Shown here in pieces: positions 17,271-28,406 of a stretch of DNA of 64,000 nucleotides (position 1 is its first letter; each line of letters opens with the position of its first letter). Position numbers and translations under genes: made by a program. The DNA is from Rufibacter radiotolerans (GTDB lineage: Bacteria; Bacteroidota; Bacteroidia; Cytophagales; Hymenobacteraceae): contig NZ_CP010777.1 in NCBI RefSeq assembly GCF_001078055.1, forward strand, positions 1,944,408 to 2,008,407, written 5' to 3'. The notes under the pieces are model-generated. The model ran no database searches and had not been told where the DNA came from. It worked only from the letters and a program-made list of their open reading frames with translations.

Positions 17271-17942
17271 TTACCCTGGCAGAAGTGGCTGGTAAGAAGC
17301 ACCCACCGGCACTTCATGGCCTTGCACCTGTATCTGGTGGCGTTCTATCTTGTCAATCTTGTCTTTGGCCACCAGGTAAGAACGGTGCACCCGGGTAAAT
17401 TTTTCCGGCGGAAGCAGGTCCATTACTTCGCCCATGGTCATGCGTGACAGTAGTTTCTTCTCCTTTAACACAAAGGTCACGTAGTTGCCGGCGGCCTCCA
17501 GAAACAGGATTTCCTCAAAACAGACCTTTACCTGCTCATAGCCGGTTTTCAGGAAAATGAATTCTTTTGTCGGGGTGCGCTTTCCCCTTAGTTGTAGAAG
17601 TTCCTGCGCTTTGTTGCAGGCTTTCACAAACCTGGCCAGGGAGAAAGGCTTTAGCAGATAGTCTATGGCGTCTAACTCAAAACTGGTCACGGCGTGCTCA
17701 GAATACGCTGTGGTGAATATGACCATGGGTTTTTGCTGCAGGCTGGTGACAAACTCCAGGCCGGTGATATCGGGCATTTTAATATCCAGGAAAAGCAGGT
17801 CTACAGAGTTGGTTTGCAAATAGTCCAGGGCCTGAAAGGCGTCAGTGAAACAGGCCACCAATTCAAGGTATGGCACCTTGCCCGCCAGGGATTTGACAAC
17901 TTCCAGCGCCATGGGTTCATCATCTATCGCAATTGCTCTCAT
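17271..17942 (-). CDS. LytTR-family response regulator
   Basis: Response regulator of 223 residues. The receiver domain (about 1-118) has the acidic pair in IDDEP and phospho-acceptor Asp53 in FLDIKMPD, with TTAYSEHA and LKPFSLARFVKA completing the fold. The LytTR DNA-binding domain occupies about 130-223 (VCFEEILFLEAAGNYV, FTRVHRSYLV). It follows the sensor kinase gene by 33 bp on the same strand, so it is almost certainly its cognate partner. The C-terminal end, ASYQPLLPG, is normal for the family. Targets are unknown. Confidence 0.95.
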   Translation of the reverse strand: MRAIAIDDEPMALEVVKSLAGKVPYLELVACFTDAFQALDYLQTNSVDLLFLDIKMPDITGLEFVTSLQQKPMVIFTTAYSEHAVTSFELDAIDYLLKPFSLARFVKACNKAQELLQLRGKRTPTKEFIFLKTGYEQVKVCFEEILFLEAAGNYVTFVLKEKKLLSRMTMGEVMDLLPPEKFTRVHRSYLVAKDKIDKIERHQIQVQGHEVPVGASYQPLLPG

Positions 17943-17975
17943 GGATTTAAAGGGGCTCTCTTACAGGTGGCTTGA

Positions 17976-19481
17976 TTACAGTTGAAGCGTGAGGTGGACA
18001 AAATACTCTTCGGGGGTGTTTCTGATGATCAATTCATGCTTGCCGGGGTACAACAGGGCCAGTCGCTGCTTTACGTTCACCAACCCAATGCCCGATTGGT
18101 TTTTCTCCGGGTCGTTATCGGTTTTGGCGTGGGCGCTGTTGTAGACATCAAAATACAACTTATTTTGGTCACAGTGCAGGGTTATTTTAATCCAGGATTG
18201 GTTTTTCAGGCTGATGCCGTGCTTAAAGGCATTCTCCACAAACGGGATCAACAACATAGGGGCAATGAACTTATCGTCTATCACGTCTTCTATTTTGGTC
18301 TGAATCTGGATGTTTGGCGAAGTAGAGATCCGGAGCATTTGCAGGTCTATGTAATTGCGCATGTACTCTACCTCCCGTGAAAGCAGAATCTTTTGCTGCA
18401 GGTTCTCATGCAGCATAAAGCGCATCATGTCACCCAGCATCTGAATGCCTTGCGCGGTGCGGTCGCTGTTTTCCTGCAGGGCGGTGCCGTACAGGGTGTT
18501 TAAAGCGTTGAACAGAAAATGCGGGTTGATCTGGGACCGCAGAAAATCAAGGTTGGCGTTGGAAGTACCTAATTCCTTCTGGAGCACGGCTACTTCTTCC
18601 TTGCCTTTCATTTGCCTCTTATACAGCATCCAGACAAGCGGTAGCGTGACAAACAGCTGGAAAATGCTGTTGACTAAGCTATAGGCAAAAGCTGTTTCCT
18701 CATCATGAATAAAGATTAAACTTACTAAGGCCACTGGCAGGTAAGCAAGGACCCAAACCAGCACGCTTTTGCTCATGTAGGACCGGAAAGGCTTTTTATT
18801 GGGTAAAGACTTAGGAATAAGGTAATAGAATGAGTAGCAGTAGTAAAGTATCCCCAAGGGGGCCGTAATTCCCCACGCTACAAGCACTTCTCCATCGGCA
18901 TCGGCCAAAAACAACAGAAACATGCTCACCAGAAACACCACAAAAGCCGTCTGTACGTCACGGGTCAAAAACCTGAACCTGTTTTGAATTACCGCAGAGT
19001 TGGTAAGCAGGTACGTGCTCACATATTTGATAAAGGTATAAAAGGCAAACAGCGCAAAGAGGGTGAGAGTTGTATGGAAACTTTCTAAAAAAATGGACTC
19101 ATACGTGTCTTCTTCGGTTCTGAACTGGCCAAAGCGGTACGCCTGCAGGTAGGTGTTGGTAATACTGAAAAGCAATCCTAAAAACAAAAACGCCAACAAC
19201 ACCCATAACACATTTTTCGCCACCTTCTCTTTGGCTAACAGTTTAGGGATTAGGATGAAGTTTAAAATCAACACCGTCAGGAAGGTTCCTATAAACTGGA
19301 GCAGCTGTGGCGTAAAAAAATTGCGGTAATAGTAAAAGCGAATGCCCTCGTCCTGGAATTTCTCTAAATACGGAACCTCTGGCCCTGTAACGAGAAAAAG
19401 CACTGCAAAGGCAAAGATGGTGATCGCCGCCCAGAATTCTATTTTACTTTGGAAGGTGGGTGTTGGAAGGATACTTTTCAT
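17976..19481 (-). CDS. LytS-type sensor histidine kinase
   Basis: Membrane sensor kinase of 501 residues. The N-terminal half has seven or eight hydrophobic segments with no extracellular domain, followed by a short coiled coil (KGKEEVAVLQKELGTSNANL, 20 residues). The His_kinase domain has QINPHFLFNALNTLYG with the phospho-accepting His. The ATPase region shows FVENAFKHGI and the glycine motif NQSGIGLVNVKQRL. It lacks a typical HisKA domain, as expected for LytS/YehU-type kinases that pair with LytTR regulators. It is the first gene of a two-gene operon. The signal is unknown. Confidence 0.93.
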   Translation of the reverse strand: MKSILPTPTFQSKIEFWAAITIFAFAVLFLVTGPEVPYLEKFQDEGIRFYYYRNFFTPQLLQFIGTFLTVLILNFILIPKLLAKEKVAKNVLWVLLAFLFLGLLFSITNTYLQAYRFGQFRTEEDTYESIFLESFHTTLTLFALFAFYTFIKYVSTYLLTNSAVIQNRFRFLTRDVQTAFVVFLVSMFLLFLADADGEVLVAWGITAPLGILYYCYSFYYLIPKSLPNKKPFRSYMSKSVLVWVLAYLPVALVSLIFIHDEETAFAYSLVNSIFQLFVTLPLVWMLYKRQMKGKEEVAVLQKELGTSNANLDFLRSQINPHFLFNALNTLYGTALQENSDRTAQGIQMLGDMMRFMLHENLQQKILLSREVEYMRNYIDLQMLRISTSPNIQIQTKIEDVIDDKFIAPMLLIPFVENAFKHGISLKNQSWIKITLHCDQNKLYFDVYNSAHAKTDNDPEKNQSGIGLVNVKQRLALLYPGKHELIIRNTPEEYFVHLTLQL

Positions 19482-20600: not shown

Positions 20601-20820
20601 AGTGGTAAAGGCTTATTCTTCTTACGATGAATTCAAAAATGTGGGAATAGGGGAAGCTTAGGACAAGAAAAATGTTACCTGACACCCTTAAGGCAAGGTC
20701 TTCCCCTTTGGTTGTGGTCTTATCCTTCTCTTAGTATAGATCCTTTTTGTCTGTTCCCTTTGGTCTCCTTCCTCAGAATTTATGAACATGCTTGTTTTCT
20801 AAGCAAGAACTCTTTATTAT

Positions 20821-20870
20821 TATAGGTCAAAAAACCTATAAATGATATTTATAAGCAAAACACCTTATAA
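20821..20870 (+). promoter_or_regulatory. Two adjacent inverted repeats upstream of satD
   Basis: TATAGGT-CAAAAA-ACCTATA (20821-20840) and TTATAAG-CAAAACAC-CTTATAA (20849-20870) are both perfect 7-bp inverted repeats. They sit 36-85 bp before the SatD-like gene, whose product has a C-terminal helix-turn-helix. They look like operators, possibly for autoregulation. The match between operator and protein is inference. Confidence 0.5.
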
Positions 20871-20905
20871 TTATTCTTTATAGATAATTCAACCTATGCA
20901 AGCAA

Positions 20906-21607
20906 ATGCAACCCATGATAGCAGTTTTAACGGGTGATATTATAGATTCTACCTTGCTAAGCGACTCAGAGAGGGCTCGTTTAAACCAAGTCATGAACGA
21001 GGGCTTGACAACTTTGGTGGGCAAGGACCATTATGAGATCTTCAGGGGCGATAGTTTCCAAATTCTACTGGATACCCCTTCTCTGGCACTGAAAACCGCT
21101 ATTCAAGTGCGGTGCCTGTTACGGAAAAGCCTGATCTCTGACCAATTGCACCAGAACCCCACCAGCAAGAAAGCCTCAAAGGCGAACCCTCTCCAGTATT
21201 CTTATAAAAGAGAGGTAGTGGACGCCCGTATTTCTATAGGCTTAGGGAAAACAGGCTATAAAGGACCCAACATCAAAACCTCAGACGGCGAGGCCTTCCA
21301 GCTGTCAGGGAGGGCGCTGGACAGCCTGAAAAGCAAAGGTCCCCGATTGGTGGTGGCAACGCCCCAGGAGGAGTTCAACGCGTACATGGAGGTCATTTGC
21401 TCGTTGCTGGATGTCTTTATTAATAATTGGTCGGTGCAGCAAGCCGAGGTAATCTATGAACTGCTGGAGGGCAAGAAGCAACAGGAAATAGCCGATATGC
21501 TTCATATCACCCAAGCCTCTGTGAGCCAACGCATCTCTTCGGCCCATTGGCAGGAAGTGGAGAAAGCAGTGGCCTTGTTTCAGCAAAAAACCAAAAACCT
21601 AGCGTAA
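20906..21607 (+). CDS. SatD family protein with C-terminal helix-turn-helix
   Basis: Protein of 233 residues. The start MIAVLTGDIIDSTLLS is typical of SatD-like proteins; the nucleotidyl-cyclase-like opening with Asp in TGDIIDS suggests a degenerate cyclase or nucleotide-binding fold (about 1-150). The end has a sigma-region-4-like helix-turn-helix (QQEIADMLHITQASVSQRI). ATG 20906 and ATG 20915 are both possible starts. Its stop overlaps the start of a DUF3307 gene in TAATG, so the two are translationally coupled. Two perfect inverted repeats lie upstream. SatD is named from a streptococcal secretion and acid-tolerance locus; its function here is not known. Confidence 0.85.
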   Translation: MQPMIAVLTGDIIDSTLLSDSERARLNQVMNEGLTTLVGKDHYEIFRGDSFQILLDTPSLALKTAIQVRCLLRKSLISDQLHQNPTSKKASKANPLQYSYKREVVDARISIGLGKTGYKGPNIKTSDGEAFQLSGRALDSLKSKGPRLVVATPQEEFNAYMEVICSLLDVFINNWSVQQAEVIYELLEGKKQQEIADMLHITQASVSQRISSAHWQEVEKAVALFQQKTKNLA

Positions 21608-22392
21608 TGGCCGGCTTTACCCAACCAGAAATATTATTGCTGCTAAAGTTAGTGCTGGCGCACTGCCTGTCAGATTTCGCGCTGCAACCCACAGCCTGGG
21701 TAGAAAACCGGGCGCGCCGGAAGTTTAGATCCAGAAAACTGTACTACCACATTGGCATCACCGGGGTGGTCACGTTCTTGCTCTCGCAGAGTTGGCAGCT
21801 GGCGCTCTGGATTACCGTCACCCATCTGCTCATTGACCTCTGGAAAGCCTACCAGAAGTGCACCACCCTCTATTTTCTGATAGACCAATTGTTACACTTC
21901 CTGATGCTGGGGGTAGGCTGGCTCTACTATGTAAATGGCCACCTGGCCCCGGACGTTGTATTGAATAACTACCGCTTTATGGTGTACCTCACGGGGTTCT
22001 TTATCGCTACTTTCCCGTTGAGTATTGTCATAAAAGTGCTAACCGCCAAATGGGGAACTGGAAACAAACGGAGGCCTAAACCCATGAAGGATACGGCAGA
22101 AGATAATTCCCTAGAAGGGCCGAAAGTGCCTGCGGTACCAGAGGACAGCCGTTGGAATGAATTGAAAGAGGCCGGCCGCTGGATTGGCATTATTGAACGG
22201 GTGCTCATCATTTCGTTTGTGCTGCTGGACCAGTATGAGGCCATCGGGTTTCTGGTTGCCGCCAAAACCATTATCCGGTTCAAAGAGACAGACCAGCGCA
22301 AGTCAGAATACTTCCTGTTCGGTACCCTGCTGAGCATCAGCCTTTCCATTTTTCTGGCCCTGGTCATGAAGATGGCGTTGGGGCTGGAATAA
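21607..22392 (+). CDS. DUF3307 membrane protein
   Basis: Integral membrane protein of 261 residues with about five hydrophobic segments. The N-terminal half is DUF3307: LLLLKLVLAHCLSDFALQP, then YYHIGITGVVTFLL and ITVTHLLIDLWKAYQ, with His and Asp residues embedded in the helices. A hydrophilic loop follows near 160-205, then a second membrane part ending EYFLFGTLLSIS. I chose ATG 21607, which overlaps the satD stop (TAATG); the ORF could open 60 bp earlier but that would lie inside satD. SatD and DUF3307 probably act together. The biochemical role is unknown. Confidence 0.88.
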   Translation: MAGFTQPEILLLLKLVLAHCLSDFALQPTAWVENRARRKFRSRKLYYHIGITGVVTFLLSQSWQLALWITVTHLLIDLWKAYQKCTTLYFLIDQLLHFLMLGVGWLYYVNGHLAPDVVLNNYRFMVYLTGFFIATFPLSIVIKVLTAKWGTGNKRRPKPMKDTAEDNSLEGPKVPAVPEDSRWNELKEAGRWIGIIERVLIISFVLLDQYEAIGFLVAAKTIIRFKETDQRKSEYFLFGTLLSISLSIFLALVMKMALGLE

Positions 22393-22412
22393 GTAAGGCG
22401 AAAGAAAAGAAC

Positions 22413-22460
22413 AAAGGCCCTGCCCTTTTTTAGGTTTAACCTTTAAGAGCAGGGCCTTTT
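22413..22460 (+). terminator. Terminator of the satD-DUF3307 operon
   Basis: Stem AAAGGCCCTGC/GCAGGGCCTTT with a loop that can itself fold through AGGTTTAACCT, followed by TAAATAG. It begins 20 bp past the DUF3307 stop. Confidence 0.8.
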
Positions 22461-24173: not shown

Positions 24174-27100
24174 TTAGTCGCGGTTATACAACCAGGTCCA
24201 CTCCCTTAACTGCTCTTCTGTCTTTTTGTTTATCTGGCCGGGCAATAAACGCCAGCCCCAGTTTCCCTCGCCTTTGCCCGGGGTGTTCATGCGGCCTTTC
24301 TCATCAATGCCCAGCACATCTTGCAGAGGCAGAATAGCGGTCTTCGCCACTGAGGCGTAGGCCAGCCGGGCCATGACCCAATAAATATCAGACTCGCTCA
24401 GGCCGCGGCCCACGTAGTGCTCAATCTGTTTATGGTGCGCCTTGCCTTCCTGGCGGTACCACCCCAAAGTGGTGTTATTGTCATGGGTGCCCGTATAGGC
24501 GATAAAGTTACGGCCGTAGTTATGCGGCATATAGGCATTCTGTGGCATTTCATCGCCCCAAGCAAACTGCAGAATCTTCATGCCGGGCAGGTTGAAATCA
24601 TCACGCAGTTTCAGGACCAGGTCATTGATCTCGCCCAGGTCCTCGGCTATAAACGGCAGACTCCCCAGTTCTTTTTCTACAAAGGTGAAAAACTCGGCCC
24701 CTGGCCCTAATTTCCATTCGCCTTGCTTGGCGGTGGATTCGCCGGCGGGCACTTCCCAGTAATCGGCGAAGGCCCTGAAGTGGTCCAGGCGCACCAGGTC
24801 ATACAGTTCCATATTCTTGCGCAGCCGGCCTATCCACCAGCTGTAGTCCTGTTCTTTGAGCACGTCCCACTTAAAGACGGGCATACCCCATAGCTGACCG
24901 TCTTCTGAGAAATCATCGGGCGGCACGCCGGCCACGCCGGTCATGTTCCCTTCGTCATCCACCGCAAAAATGTCCCGGTTGCCCCATACATCCACGCTGT
25001 CATAGCTAATGTAAAAGGGCATGTCTCCGAACATTTGGATGCCGCGGTTGTTGCAGTAAGTGCGCAGGTTTTTCCATTGCCTGGCGAAGATAAACTGCAC
25101 CCATTTGATCTTTTCTATGTCTAGAGCATGCTCCTGGGCCAGTTGCTCCAGCGCCTCCGGGTCACGTTGTCGGTAAGGTTCCTCCCACTGGAACCAAGCG
25201 CTGCCGCCATTCTGCTCCTTCAACAGCACATACAGCCCGAAGTCATGTAGCCAACCGGCCTCTGAACCGGCGTAGTCAACAAACTGCTGCTGCAAGGTGG
25301 GGAAGTCGCCGGCTTTAAAGGTTTGCCAGGCGCGTTCCAGCAGCTCGTCTTTCACGCGTTTGGCTTGCTCATAGTCCACGCTGCCTGTTTGCGGCAGGTA
25401 ATACGCCGGCAGTTCGTCATGGGTTAGCAACCCATCTTTCACCAACTGCTCCGGACTGATAAGCAAGGGATTGCCGGCCCGGCTGGAGATGGAACTGTAG
25501 GGCGAATACCCCTGGCCCGCCTCTATGGGGTTAAGGGGCAGCAACTGCCAGTACTTTTGGTGGCTGGCGTGCAGGAAGTGGGCGAAATTACGGGCCTCTG
25601 GGCCCAGGTCTCCAATACCGAAGGGCGAAGGCAAAGAGGTAAGGTGCAGCAGGATACCCGCCCCACGCTCACTCTGGGCTTTCAGTTTCAGCAGCGCCAA
25701 CGGGAAAATCCCGAACAGGTCCCCCACCATAAGTTCATGCGCATACTTGCCCGTGGTCCGGACCAACAGTTCCTGCCAGTCTTTGGGGGCTTTCTCGGGC
25801 AAGATGATCTTGGTGTCTTTCCAGTCAATCTCATGCAAGGATTTCACGCCCTGCTTTTTGGCCAGAGCCGCCAGATGCAGCGGCACGGCTACCACCAGCC
25901 AGGTATCGAGGTGCTTGCGCACGAAGGCCAAGACGTGGTCTTTGTGTTCGCCTTCCACCTCCAGGGGCAGATAGGCTCCCTTAGAGAAAAGGTTGGCGTT
26001 GTTCTTCCGCTCAGTGAACAGCGTGCGGGTGAGCCAGAGTTTGATGCGGGCATCGGTGCGGCTCTGCCAGAGATCTTCCCATAGCGCTTCCTGCTTGTTC
26101 AGGTCCACCTCATTGAGTTCCTCCAGCCAAACCTGGCGCTGCTCATAGTCCACAGGGCGGCGGTTATCGGGGTCCACCAAACTGAAGTCCCAGAGTTCGG
26201 TGCCCTGGTACACATCGGGCACGCCCGGCGCAGTGAATTTCAAGAGTACCTGGCTAAGCGAGTTAGCGATGCCAAAGTTTATCGTTTTTGCCCTGAATTT
26301 CTCAAAACTGCCCCAAAACGGCCGGCTCTTATCCAGGAGCTTGACGGCAAAGGCCTTGGTAGCCGCTTCATAATCCTCATTGGGTGTGGTCCAGTTAGAA
26401 TGTACTTTGGCCTCGCGCAGGGCTTTCTGCAAATACTCCTGCACCCGGTTCTCAAAATCATCCTCGTCCTGACCTGGCATAGGGAACGCGCCCAGCAGAG
26501 TCTGGTAAATGAGGTATTCGTCGTTGGCGTCTGGGGCGTTCTGCTGCTTAAGGTCTTGGTTGAGTTGGCGCCATTCCTGCACGGCCGCGGCCCATTCCTC
26601 GGGCATCTCGGTGAGCACGTTAAGGCGCGCGCGCACGTCCTCGCCGCGTTTGGTGTCATGGGTGGAGGTACCGTTCATGGCCAGGGGCCACTTTTTCTGC
26701 CGGTCCTGCATGGCGGCATGGAACTCCCCAGCGCTCATCCCGAAGGCTTCTGGCGCATCTCCTACCTCATTGTGCCCAATAAAGCGGTTATAGGTGTACA
26801 TGAGCGTGTCTTCCACCCCCTTGGCCATGAGCGGACCGGTAAACTGCATGAGGCGCTGGTAGAATTTCAGGGCGCGGTCCTGGTAGGAATCATCTTCGCC
26901 TTCAGGCGCCGTACCTAAAATAGCCCCCTCCAGCAACTCCACCGCCCCTTCCATTTCGGGCCTGTTTTCCCGAATCTGGTTGAAAACCAGCTGCACAGCC
27001 TCTGCCTCGGCGCCGTCTATGGGCATTTGGTTACCATAGTAGCGATACACGGGGCACTGTATCAGAAACTCCCCAATGGCCGCTTTCAACGTTTCCGCGG

Positions 27101-28406
27101 GTACGGCCCCCAAGACGTCTTCGTGCACCAGGCGCTGCTGCAAAAACAGTTGGTACAGGTTTTCCAACTCGCCGCCCATGTGCTCGGTCAGGATGTGGGC
27201 CTTTTTTTCATGGATCTGCTGGTGCACCTCGGCGCCCTCTCCCACCAGTTGGTGGTAAAGTTTATCAAAGCCTTCTTTACCAGGCTGGAAGGTAAACAGG
27301 TTGTTGACCAGTGAAAGAAAATCATAACCGCTGCTGCCTTGGATGGGCCAATGTTCTGGCAACTGCTCGCCGGGCTCCAGGATCTTCTCCACCACTAGAT
27401 ACGTCTCGTCGCCTGTGAAGTCGCGGAGCTGCTGCAGGTAACCGGTGGGGTCATAGAGGCCGTCAACGTGGTCAATGCGCAGGCCCTGGAACACACCTTC
27501 GTCCTGCAATTGCTTGATGTACTGGTGGTAGGTGGCGAAGACCTCGGGATCCTGGATGTTGAGGCAGATCAAGCCGTTCACGGTAAAGAACCGCCGGAAG
27601 TTGATCTGCGCATCGGTTTCCTGCCAGTGGCACAGTTGGTACACCTGTTCTTGGGCGATTTGCAGGATTTGTTCTTTATCTGAATTGATTTCCTGTAAGC
27701 TGGTTTCTATTGCCGCCCGCACGGTGTTATCCTGCATCAAGGAAGCCAGCTGCTGCCGGAATTCATCCCATTGGAGGGCATATGCTTTGGGGTCTTCTTC
27801 TCTATGGATCAGGTCCAGTTCTTTCAGCAACCCCGCCAAGGCTTGGTTGGATTGCCCCACACTTTGCAGGATCGTTTCATACACCCGCGGATTCAAAGGA
27901 TAGGCGCTGTCATAATAGTTAAGCACCAGGCGCTGCTGCGCCGCATCAAAGGCTACCTGCAGTTCACCGTTCTGCACCACCTCTTCCAGCTTCGCTCCTA
28001 GGAACGGGACCATCACTCGGCCGTTATAAAGAGGGCTGGTCCAGTTAATATCAAAGAATTTCTGGTACTGGCTCATGGCGCCCTTCTCAAGCACATCCAT
28101 CATCCAGGGGTTATTGACGTGAAAGGCCATGTGGTTGGGCACAATGTCCTGCAGCCAGCCAATGCCGTTTTCCTTCAGGTTACCGCTCAGGGTTTTTAAT
28201 TCTTCCTCGGTACCAATTTCCGGGTTAACCCTATGCGGGTTCACCCCATCATAGCCGTGCGTACTGCCGGGGGTGGCCTCAAAAATGGGCGAGGCGTAAA
28301 TGGTGCTCACGCCCAATTTCTGCAGATAAATGATGATGCGCTCAAAGTCCTGGAAGGTAAATTTTTGGTGGAACTGCAAGCGGTAAGTGGCGACAGGGTT
28401 ATACAT
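24174..28406 (-). CDS. treY-malQ: Fused malto-oligosyltrehalose synthase and 4-alpha-glucanotransferase
   Basis: Bifunctional protein of 1410 residues. Residues 1 to about 900 are TreY (GH13), which turns the reducing-end glucose of a maltodextrin into an alpha,alpha-1,1 trehalosyl end; seen motifs are YRLQFHQKFTF, IVPNHMAF, GLRIDHVDGLYD, VVEKILEPGE and STHDTKRGEDVRARL. From about 913 comes MalQ (GH77): GILLHLTSLPSPFGIGDLG, VRLDHFRAFADYWEVP, IAEDLGEI and GTHDNNTTLGWYR. The junction has almost no linker (KLKAQSERGAG). MalQ would disproportionate the short glucans that TreY and TreZ leave. It lies downstream of glgX and treZ on the same strand, behind a 319-bp gap with two hairpin copies. Confidence 0.95.
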   Translation of the reverse strand: MYNPVATYRLQFHQKFTFQDFERIIIYLQKLGVSTIYASPIFEATPGSTHGYDGVNPHRVNPEIGTEEELKTLSGNLKENGIGWLQDIVPNHMAFHVNNPWMMDVLEKGAMSQYQKFFDINWTSPLYNGRVMVPFLGAKLEEVVQNGELQVAFDAAQQRLVLNYYDSAYPLNPRVYETILQSVGQSNQALAGLLKELDLIHREEDPKAYALQWDEFRQQLASLMQDNTVRAAIETSLQEINSDKEQILQIAQEQVYQLCHWQETDAQINFRRFFTVNGLICLNIQDPEVFATYHQYIKQLQDEGVFQGLRIDHVDGLYDPTGYLQQLRDFTGDETYLVVEKILEPGEQLPEHWPIQGSSGYDFLSLVNNLFTFQPGKEGFDKLYHQLVGEGAEVHQQIHEKKAHILTEHMGGELENLYQLFLQQRLVHEDVLGAVPAETLKAAIGEFLIQCPVYRYYGNQMPIDGAEAEAVQLVFNQIRENRPEMEGAVELLEGAILGTAPEGEDDSYQDRALKFYQRLMQFTGPLMAKGVEDTLMYTYNRFIGHNEVGDAPEAFGMSAGEFHAAMQDRQKKWPLAMNGTSTHDTKRGEDVRARLNVLTEMPEEWAAAVQEWRQLNQDLKQQNAPDANDEYLIYQTLLGAFPMPGQDEDDFENRVQEYLQKALREAKVHSNWTTPNEDYEAATKAFAVKLLDKSRPFWGSFEKFRAKTINFGIANSLSQVLLKFTAPGVPDVYQGTELWDFSLVDPDNRRPVDYEQRQVWLEELNEVDLNKQEALWEDLWQSRTDARIKLWLTRTLFTERKNNANLFSKGAYLPLEVEGEHKDHVLAFVRKHLDTWLVVAVPLHLAALAKKQGVKSLHEIDWKDTKIILPEKAPKDWQELLVRTTGKYAHELMVGDLFGIFPLALLKLKAQSERGAGILLHLTSLPSPFGIGDLGPEARNFAHFLHASHQKYWQLLPLNPIEAGQGYSPYSSISSRAGNPLLISPEQLVKDGLLTHDELPAYYLPQTGSVDYEQAKRVKDELLERAWQTFKAGDFPTLQQQFVDYAGSEAGWLHDFGLYVLLKEQNGGSAWFQWEEPYRQRDPEALEQLAQEHALDIEKIKWVQFIFARQWKNLRTYCNNRGIQMFGDMPFYISYDSVDVWGNRDIFAVDDEGNMTGVAGVPPDDFSEDGQLWGMPVFKWDVLKEQDYSWWIGRLRKNMELYDLVRLDHFRAFADYWEVPAGESTAKQGEWKLGPGAEFFTFVEKELGSLPFIAEDLGEINDLVLKLRDDFNLPGMKILQFAWGDEMPQNAYMPHNYGRNFIAYTGTHDNNTTLGWYRQEGKAHHKQIEHYVGRGLSESDIYWVMARLAYASVAKTAILPLQDVLGIDEKGRMNTPGKGEGNWGWRLLPGQINKKTEEQLREWTWLYNRD

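Follow-up and report, generated by a model that had tools for sequence, protein, structure and literature searches.

The window analysed here is a stretch of 64,000 nucleotides from Rufibacter radiotolerans (contig NZ_CP010777.1, positions 1,944,408 to 2,008,407). It carries a two-gene module composed of satD, encoding a protein that combines a cyclase-like domain with a helix-turn-helix (HTH), and of a gene for a membrane protein with a DUF3307 domain (Table 1). The module lies between LigT and MgtC genes, is preceded by a tandem array of palindromes and ends in a long hairpin. The satD gene has 233 codons (with an alternative start ATG at 20915), and its stop codon (TAA, 21605-21607) shares one base with the start codon of the 261-codon partner gene (ATG from 21607), which encodes a two-domain membrane protein. 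An earlier note, made from the letters of this DNA alone, had described this TAATG overlap and a single terminator ending both genes. Both descriptions agree with our analysis: the overlap is as given, and the hairpin at 22413-22459 is strong (-25.9 kcal/mol, z -3.95, one of 200 shuffles as good).

Table 1. Features of the satD module in the window (positions count from the first letter of the window).
Feature	Position	Strand	Description
Operator copy 1 (putative)	20820..20841	.	TTATAGGT-N6-ACCTATAA, perfect
Operator copy 2 (putative)	20849..20870	.	TTATAAG-N8-CTTATAA, perfect, +29 bp
Operator copy 3 (putative)	20878..20899	.	imperfect, TATAGATAATTCAACCTATG at 20879-20898, +29 bp
satD	20906..21607	+	cyclase/GGDEF-fold domain ~4-153, helical linker, HTH ~177-213, recognition helix 203-212
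Membrane protein gene	21607..22392	+	DUF3307 domain ~11-108, conserved unnamed C-terminal domain ~125-261
Long hairpin, probable terminator	22413..22459	.	common to the module and the convergent MgtC gene

Three palindromes of about 20 base pairs (bp) precede satD in steps of 29 and 29 bp, at 20820 (TTATAGGTCAAAAAACCTATAA), 20849 (TTATAAGCAAAACACCTTATAA) and 20878 (TTATAGATAATTCAACCTAT), with about 6 bp between the last one and the start codon (ATG, 20906). The earlier note had pointed to two perfect inverted repeats, TATAGGT/ACCTATA and TTATAAG/CTTATAA. Both are real and perfect (TATAGGT-N6-ACCTATA at 20821-20840, and the second at 20849-20870); the third, imperfect copy had been missed. As single sites the palindromes are unremarkable: allowing at most two mismatches there are 8 in the window where 5.2 would be expected, a number attained in 18 of 100 shuffles. 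Their tandem arrangement is remarkable. The exact pattern TATARG-N8-CYTATA occurs at four sites in the 4.82-Mb genome, two of them before satD and 29 bp apart, and no other pair of sites lies within 100 bp among the genome sites listed with at most one mismatch. We rejected a wider regulon driven by satD, given just two exact single sites outside satD and no second tandem array among these listed sites, which makes a local regulator likelier.

We compared the window with its relatives in a set of 123 satD loci, of which 38 (window included) came from protein or family searches of whole genomes, 80 were named loci retrieved by pattern search, and five were plasmid loci. The pattern search used short peptide patterns, possibly including RGDSFQ, which would then be enriched by selection in the 80 named loci and not in the 38 from genome searches. 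Start codons of the relatives were chosen by rule, and the phyla of the named organisms are those to which we presume they belong. The loci are related to one another; three pairs have identical C-terminal 180 residues of SatD, and one of these pairs is the same locus taken twice (L019/L067). We scored the 170 bp upstream of each start by the two palindromes that together did best at a distance of 27-32 bp (arms of 7 bp, loops of 3-9, the same in both), in 122 loci with the window excluded. As controls we used shuffled sequences and 762 upstreams of other open reading frames (ORFs, at least 150 codons) in the same loci.

A score of at least 13 was reached by 62 of the 122 loci, by 1.07% of 2440 shuffles and by 4 of the 762 control upstreams. 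The window itself scores 14 out of 14, a value found in 22 of the 122 loci and in none of the shuffles or control upstreams. Relatedness has little effect on these proportions: 60 of 119 loci reach 13 when each distinct SatD sequence is counted once, as do 51 of 103 in a set thinned to less than 80% identity and 25 of 56 at less than 50%. Single periods scanned at score 12 peaked at 28 and 29 (33 and 67 loci, respectively), the other periods from 18 to 45 giving 6 to 28 loci. Among 87 chromosomal loci with clear arrays (plasmids left out, at least one non-Bacteroidota locus, L090, included), the array consists of three copies in 57 and of two in 21; longer arrays, three with 5 copies and one with 13, also entered these counts and are perhaps over-extended. 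The earlier note had proposed to look for similar repeats before satD in relatives, and held that their absence upstream of orthologues would speak against its idea. We found the opposite of absence: the spacing is conserved in many relatives, though the letters are not. From the shuffle and control-upstream tests we rejected AT-rich chance as a source of the array, though not of the single sites.

The array extends to part of 18 further loci that border on the main set or lie beyond it, which we compared with 200 shuffles each. Shuffles did as well in no case for Enterobacter kobei, one IMG/VR contig, Candidatus Loosdrechtia (which we take to be a planctomycete) and each of two haloarchaeal plasmids, in 1 for Vibrio lentus, 5 for Pseudoalteromonas, 6 for the plasmid pEC34A and 13 for an Ignavibacteria genome. 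Haloplanus has two pairs of GC-rich GTTCG..CGAAC palindromes, with 29 bp within each pair and 47 bp between pairs. Other loci argue against a general array: 30 of the 122 main loci score below 12, a score that 12% of shuffles reach. In the additional set, shuffles often matched the real sequence in Sphingomonas (81 of 200), Fusobacterium (55), Omnitrophus (73), P. fragi (34), two Salinivibrio (34 and 143), the K. pneumoniae plasmid LR890364 (191) and two IMG/VR contigs (180 and 163), the scores of LR890364, P. fragi and the IMG/VR loci being unreliable owing to uncertain starts. A wider stretch of LR890364, as of L140, does show 29-bp repeats. In Fusobacterium (L197, 3159-4690), a divergent SatD-like ORF overlaps a DUF3307 gene and has no clear operator array.

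The sequence of the palindromes varies between lineages, and it does so together with SatD. We related the 4-mer distance between operators to residue differences in SatD, with the distance between N-terminal domains regressed out, in 75 loci (less than 80% identity) drawn from 89 with clear arrays. The best predictors among 182 variable SatD columns were residues 203, 205, 209 and 201, which fall in or just before the recognition helix predicted by the structural model. For the block 202-213 the partial Mantel r was 0.50 (0 of 2000 permutations as high). The best 12-column window was 201-212 (r 0.55), and the best one ending before residue 195 had r 0.25. The covariation holds at less than 60% (58 loci) and less than 50% identity (46 loci), and also when the SKST class is removed (69 loci). 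When the analysis is restricted to the 53 loci of the Q203..R209 class, the r of the block drops to 0.33, still reached by none of 1000 permutations.

Particular helices go with particular half-sites. In 17 of 18 loci whose helix has SAVNQR, half-sites with ATAAG outnumber those with ATTAG, and helices with SAVNHR have ATTAG in 5 of 5 (L019/L067 counted apart); the two types belong to one clade, and these counts are uncorrected for kinship. SKST helices pair with TTCG in six loci, and the SKST helix of the Haloplanus SatD faces GTTCG. Helices of the QNV, QMV or QTV type pair with CAAC(C) in 11 of 12 loci, including that of the Enterobacter plasmid, the exception being L122. Some results fit a helix-driven pattern less well. 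Two columns that lie outside the HTH, 142 and 6, have high values as well (0.31 and 0.27; the ranks after the top four are 142, 208 and 6). Within the Q203..R209 class, helix columns 208, 202 and 205 lead together with columns 136 and 6, and the helix classes are partly clade-bound. Since operator sequence covaries with the residues of the recognition helix, SatD very probably reads its own operator array, as the earlier note had supposed in proposing that the HTH could bind the repeats. It is highly improbable that SatD does not bind the palindromes and that they belong to a different regulator or arose by chance in AT-rich DNA. The AT-rich copies of the window, the ordinary frequency of single sites and the share of shuffles reaching 12 would suit that explanation, but it accounts neither for the GC-rich palindromes spaced by 29 bp in haloarchaea nor for the covariation with SatD's own helix.

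The N-terminal domain of SatD is, by profile and by structural model, of the nucleotide-cyclase/GGDEF fold, in line with the earlier description of a cyclase-like regulator. Profiles matched the adenylyl cyclase Ma1120 (4wp8; E 8.8e-7 in A3, 1.1e-5 in A5), with TGDI of SatD aligned on FTDI and RGD on the second aspartate motif (GD). These FTDI and GD aspartates bind metal in Ma1120. The model (predicted local distance difference test 91, predicted template modelling score 0.88) resembles cyclases, GGDEF domains, Cas10-type palms and one GTP cyclohydrolase III (VIA Z 9.6-10.9, 50 matches listed), and Foldseek retrieved 4wp9 with E 2.9e-4. The aligned residues D11 and D49 are kept in every locus (123 of 123), RGDSFQ having possibly been used in choosing 80 of them. 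Given this fold and these invariant aspartates, SatD likely binds a metal-nucleotide. The case is weakened by Foldseek giving only one match at E ≤ 0.001, with a template modelling score of 0.38 over the query. It is also weakened by residue 136, which we placed by eye, and presume to stand, at the transition-state arginine of cyclases: it is R in 76 of 123 loci. SatD thus has the fold and both metal aspartates in common with class III cyclases (Ma1120, 4wp8/4wp9) and GGDEF proteins, and differs from them in this unconserved presumed arginine and in its fusion to an HTH that covaries with the operator. The SatD family, PF16264, is named after the sat operon of Streptococcus mutans. The window protein scores 23.5 bits with this family, under the gathering cut-off of 29, but 56 of 77 relatives match it at E ≤ 1 and two haloarchaeal plasmid records label their protein SatD family. 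By sequence comparison the window SatD is therefore a relative of PF16264, joined to it via its own relatives.

The DUF3307 assignment of the partner, also made by the earlier note, is firm (81.8 bits against a gathering cut-off of 23 for PF11750, which all 72 aligned relatives also match at E ≤ 1). A second domain had been overlooked. An ORF with DUF3307 motifs follows satD in 115 of 123 loci, and 105 of these 115 start within 15 nucleotides of the satD stop, 63 overlapping it. Truncated or divergent DUF3307 ORFs occur in L062 (seen by profile), L115 and L117 (by eye), and L023, one of two satD genes in its genome, has no partner. In four loci the C-terminal half stands alone after satD (by profile, E 8.5e-30 in L013, 1.6e-41 in L015, 1.6e-43 in L057 and 1e-7 in L048). 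These four loci identify the unnamed C-terminal domain, rather than DUF3307, as the constant partner of SatD in the sequences compared. The N-terminal half belongs to DUF3307, and the SatD-linked protein adds this second conserved domain to it. Across 69 sequences, G190, I193, G194, E197, R198, K220 and R224 are invariant in the C-terminal domain. In the DUF3307 half, eight polar residues never vary (H19, D23, Q27, H48, H73, D77, Q94 and H97), an enzyme-like feature. Structure searches with the membrane protein yielded no known fold (Foldseek best E 0.96; VIA best Z 5.8, values that say little for helical proteins). We rejected kinship of the DUF3307 half with YdjM (PF04307; hhalign probability 1.9% over 20 columns, 27 YdjM-family proteins).

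A cyclase-fold protein encoded beside a membrane protein recalls Pycsar, and one could picture SatD as a working cyclase that makes a signal for the membrane protein to sense, with the HTH serving autoregulation only. The fold, the two invariant metal aspartates and the shared operon suit such an enzyme pair. However, the residue presumed to be the transition-state arginine varies, no cyclic-nucleotide-binding domain or sensor is among the Pfam families listed for the partner, and the HTH, with its link to the operator array, points to a role in transcription. We consider the enzyme pair quite improbable.

With moderate confidence we read SatD instead as a nucleotide-gated autorepressor of a membrane effector, the two genes forming a self-contained accessory module. 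SatD, probably as a dimer held by its cyclase-fold domain, would bind the palindromic operators before its own gene (mostly two or three, 28-29 bp apart) and, once bound, shut down or tightly limit transcription of satD and of the membrane protein gene. The cyclase-fold domain would bind a metal-nucleotide at the two retained aspartates, and a change of ligand would alter operator binding and thereby set the level of the membrane effector. The array and its conservation, the covariation, the fold, the fixed pair and its presence or absence within the genus come from comparison of sequences and models. From them we infer a dimer with cooperative binding, repression and not activation, and a nucleotide as the ligand; that an excess of the membrane protein harms the cell is our guess. 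The arrays end a median of 23 bp before the start codon. The -7 element of Bacteroidota is TAnnTTTG, and it occurs in 49 of the 87 loci with arrays against 14 expected. In loci with even-length palindromes, 16 of 51 boxes start 6 bp from the dyad, which lays the right half-site over the box and fits repression. Two points tell against this part of the reading: no exact TAnnTTTG was found in the 190 bp searched in the window and its two closest congeners (L010 and L011), and the position of the operators is all that tells repression from activation. A further observation comes from S. pyogenes, where satD is described, in the parts of PMC11323703 covered, as essential in transposon screens yet present in 178 of 249 genomes; this would fit a repressor of something harmful.

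The distribution of the module is patchy. Protein searches found satD in 8 of 120 genomes of the family and 77 of 296 of the phylum (own genome counted), and such searches miss divergent copies, e.g., that of the congener G027. Four congeners (G027, G054, G060 and G012) have LigT and MgtC adjacent with no module between them (133, 169, 636 and 41 bp between the matches). In G057 the module is beside MgtC, with no LigT match within the 12 kb taken. In G032 (L210, 4550-12014) we observed the module between two other genes of the same neighbourhood, with no MgtC match. Judged from these genomes, the pair of SatD and membrane protein comes and goes within the genus. Plasmids carry it too. The E. 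coli plasmid pEC34A (3770 bp; L162, 1792-3481) encodes rop, mobA, one small ORF, satD and DUF3307, i.e., the module is nearly its sole cargo, and we found five Klebsiella plasmid records of the same length and a similar plasmid of 4.4 kb. Two haloarchaeal plasmids (L198, 3270-4687; L202, 2270-3687) have the same pair behind GC-rich palindromes 29 bp apart. Phage records gave no match to either window protein or to the Enterobacter SatD, neither the Enterobacter nor the pEC34A module had a DNA match in complete E. coli genomes, and four IMG/VR contigs carry satD. The best reading of these occurrences is an accessory and mobile module of bacteria and archaea, sometimes borne by plasmids. It is unlikely, in our view, that SatD has a housekeeping role, regulating some membrane or lipid enzyme, and that its genes are simply lost easily. 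The enzyme-like polar residues of the DUF3307 half would be expected of such a system, and some Flavobacteriaceae loci have recurrent flanking ORFs (judged by size and orientation only) that look vertical; the small share of genomes, the plasmid carriage and the empty sites do not favour it.

The surroundings of the module were examined for links to defence. A Sphingomonas plasmid (L135, 1159-12434) has, within 11 kb, the satD-DUF3307 pair flanked on one side by an AAA ATPase and helicase with a TIR protein and on the other by a Pycsar effector and cyclase. The copy of the Enterobacter plasmid is near an AAA ATPase/helicase pair and an integrase, and two Salinivibrio copies have ordinary neighbouring genes, none of them defence-like. 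We picked 126 nearest neighbours (ORFs above 900 residues were not picked), which became 115 after removal of 10 plasmid ORFs and one DUF3307 ORF. These 115 proteins matched 106 PADLOC models and 114 random proteins matched 16, counts that refer to models and not to proteins; 22 of the 25 models listed for the neighbours are overlapping type I specificity models matched by three proteins. The comparison does not establish an excess of defence genes near chromosomal copies, and we did not retain a general habit of lying in defence islands. The Pfam families of the neighbours are mostly metabolic, among 25 listed of 125. In the window itself, a 1410-codon ORF (24174-28406) appears by eye to join a trehalose-forming glycosidase to a 4-alpha-glucanotransferase, and a LytTR response regulator gene adjoins a histidine kinase gene upstream on the other strand (17271-19481).

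A toxin-antitoxin-like or anti-phage module would account for part of this. SatD would silence the membrane protein; infection or loss of the module would disturb a nucleotide pool, SatD would release its operators, and the membrane protein would stop growth. Toxin-antitoxin operons are small and mobile, with a DNA-binding first gene and palindromic operators. The satD module resembles them as a small mobile operon with a predicted DNA-binding first gene and palindromic candidate operators, and differs in its enzyme-like regulator fold and in having no known toxin domain. Such a role is possible, if on the unlikely side. The pair is almost the only cargo of pEC34A, of which Klebsiella has plasmid records of equal length, it sits in the defence-like company of the Sphingomonas and Enterobacter plasmids (the Sphingomonas cluster being the one with Pycsar neighbours), it is present or absent within a genus, its neighbours may exceed random proteins in PADLOC matches, and S. 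pyogenes satD is described as essential yet accessory. On the other hand, the difference in PADLOC models matched could come from a few proteins with overlapping models. The membrane protein itself has no match at E ≤ 1 among the PADLOC models (which Pycsar models the library contains was not checked) and SatD has one weak CARF match. The metabolic neighbours, the vertical look of several Flavobacteriaceae loci and the ordinary genes around the Salinivibrio copies are also out of keeping with defence.

The literature on SatD that we searched (titles, abstracts and passages) describes no operator array or mechanism. Searches on SatD, DUF3307, satC/D/E, pEC34A and cyclase-HTH proteins, which covered few subscription papers, returned no description of the module, and neither did the parts covered of PMC8504454, PMC9282650, PMC10326533, PMC5786311 and PMC6839868. 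The autorepressor reading gives this uncharacterised pair a concrete mechanism, i.e., a site for SatD, the residues that would read it, and a predicted operator preference for each relative. The series of operators that accompanies the helices (TATAAG, TTAG, TTCG, CAACC, TATCACC and ATCGG) is a natural data set for the joint change of a regulator and its operators.

We also put forward, as a rather unlikely extension, that the bacterial and archaeal module is a mobile one in which a nucleotide-sensing cyclase-fold repressor and its operators drift together under a fixed geometry of 28-29 bp, and in which the loss of the nucleotide signal, e.g., in phage infection, frees a membrane protein that stops growth. 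If true, this would be a module for immunity or addiction that is gated at transcription, of a kind undescribed in the literature searched. An addictive or protective module would also explain how an accessory satD can score as essential, and how a plasmid of 3.8 kb can carry little else.

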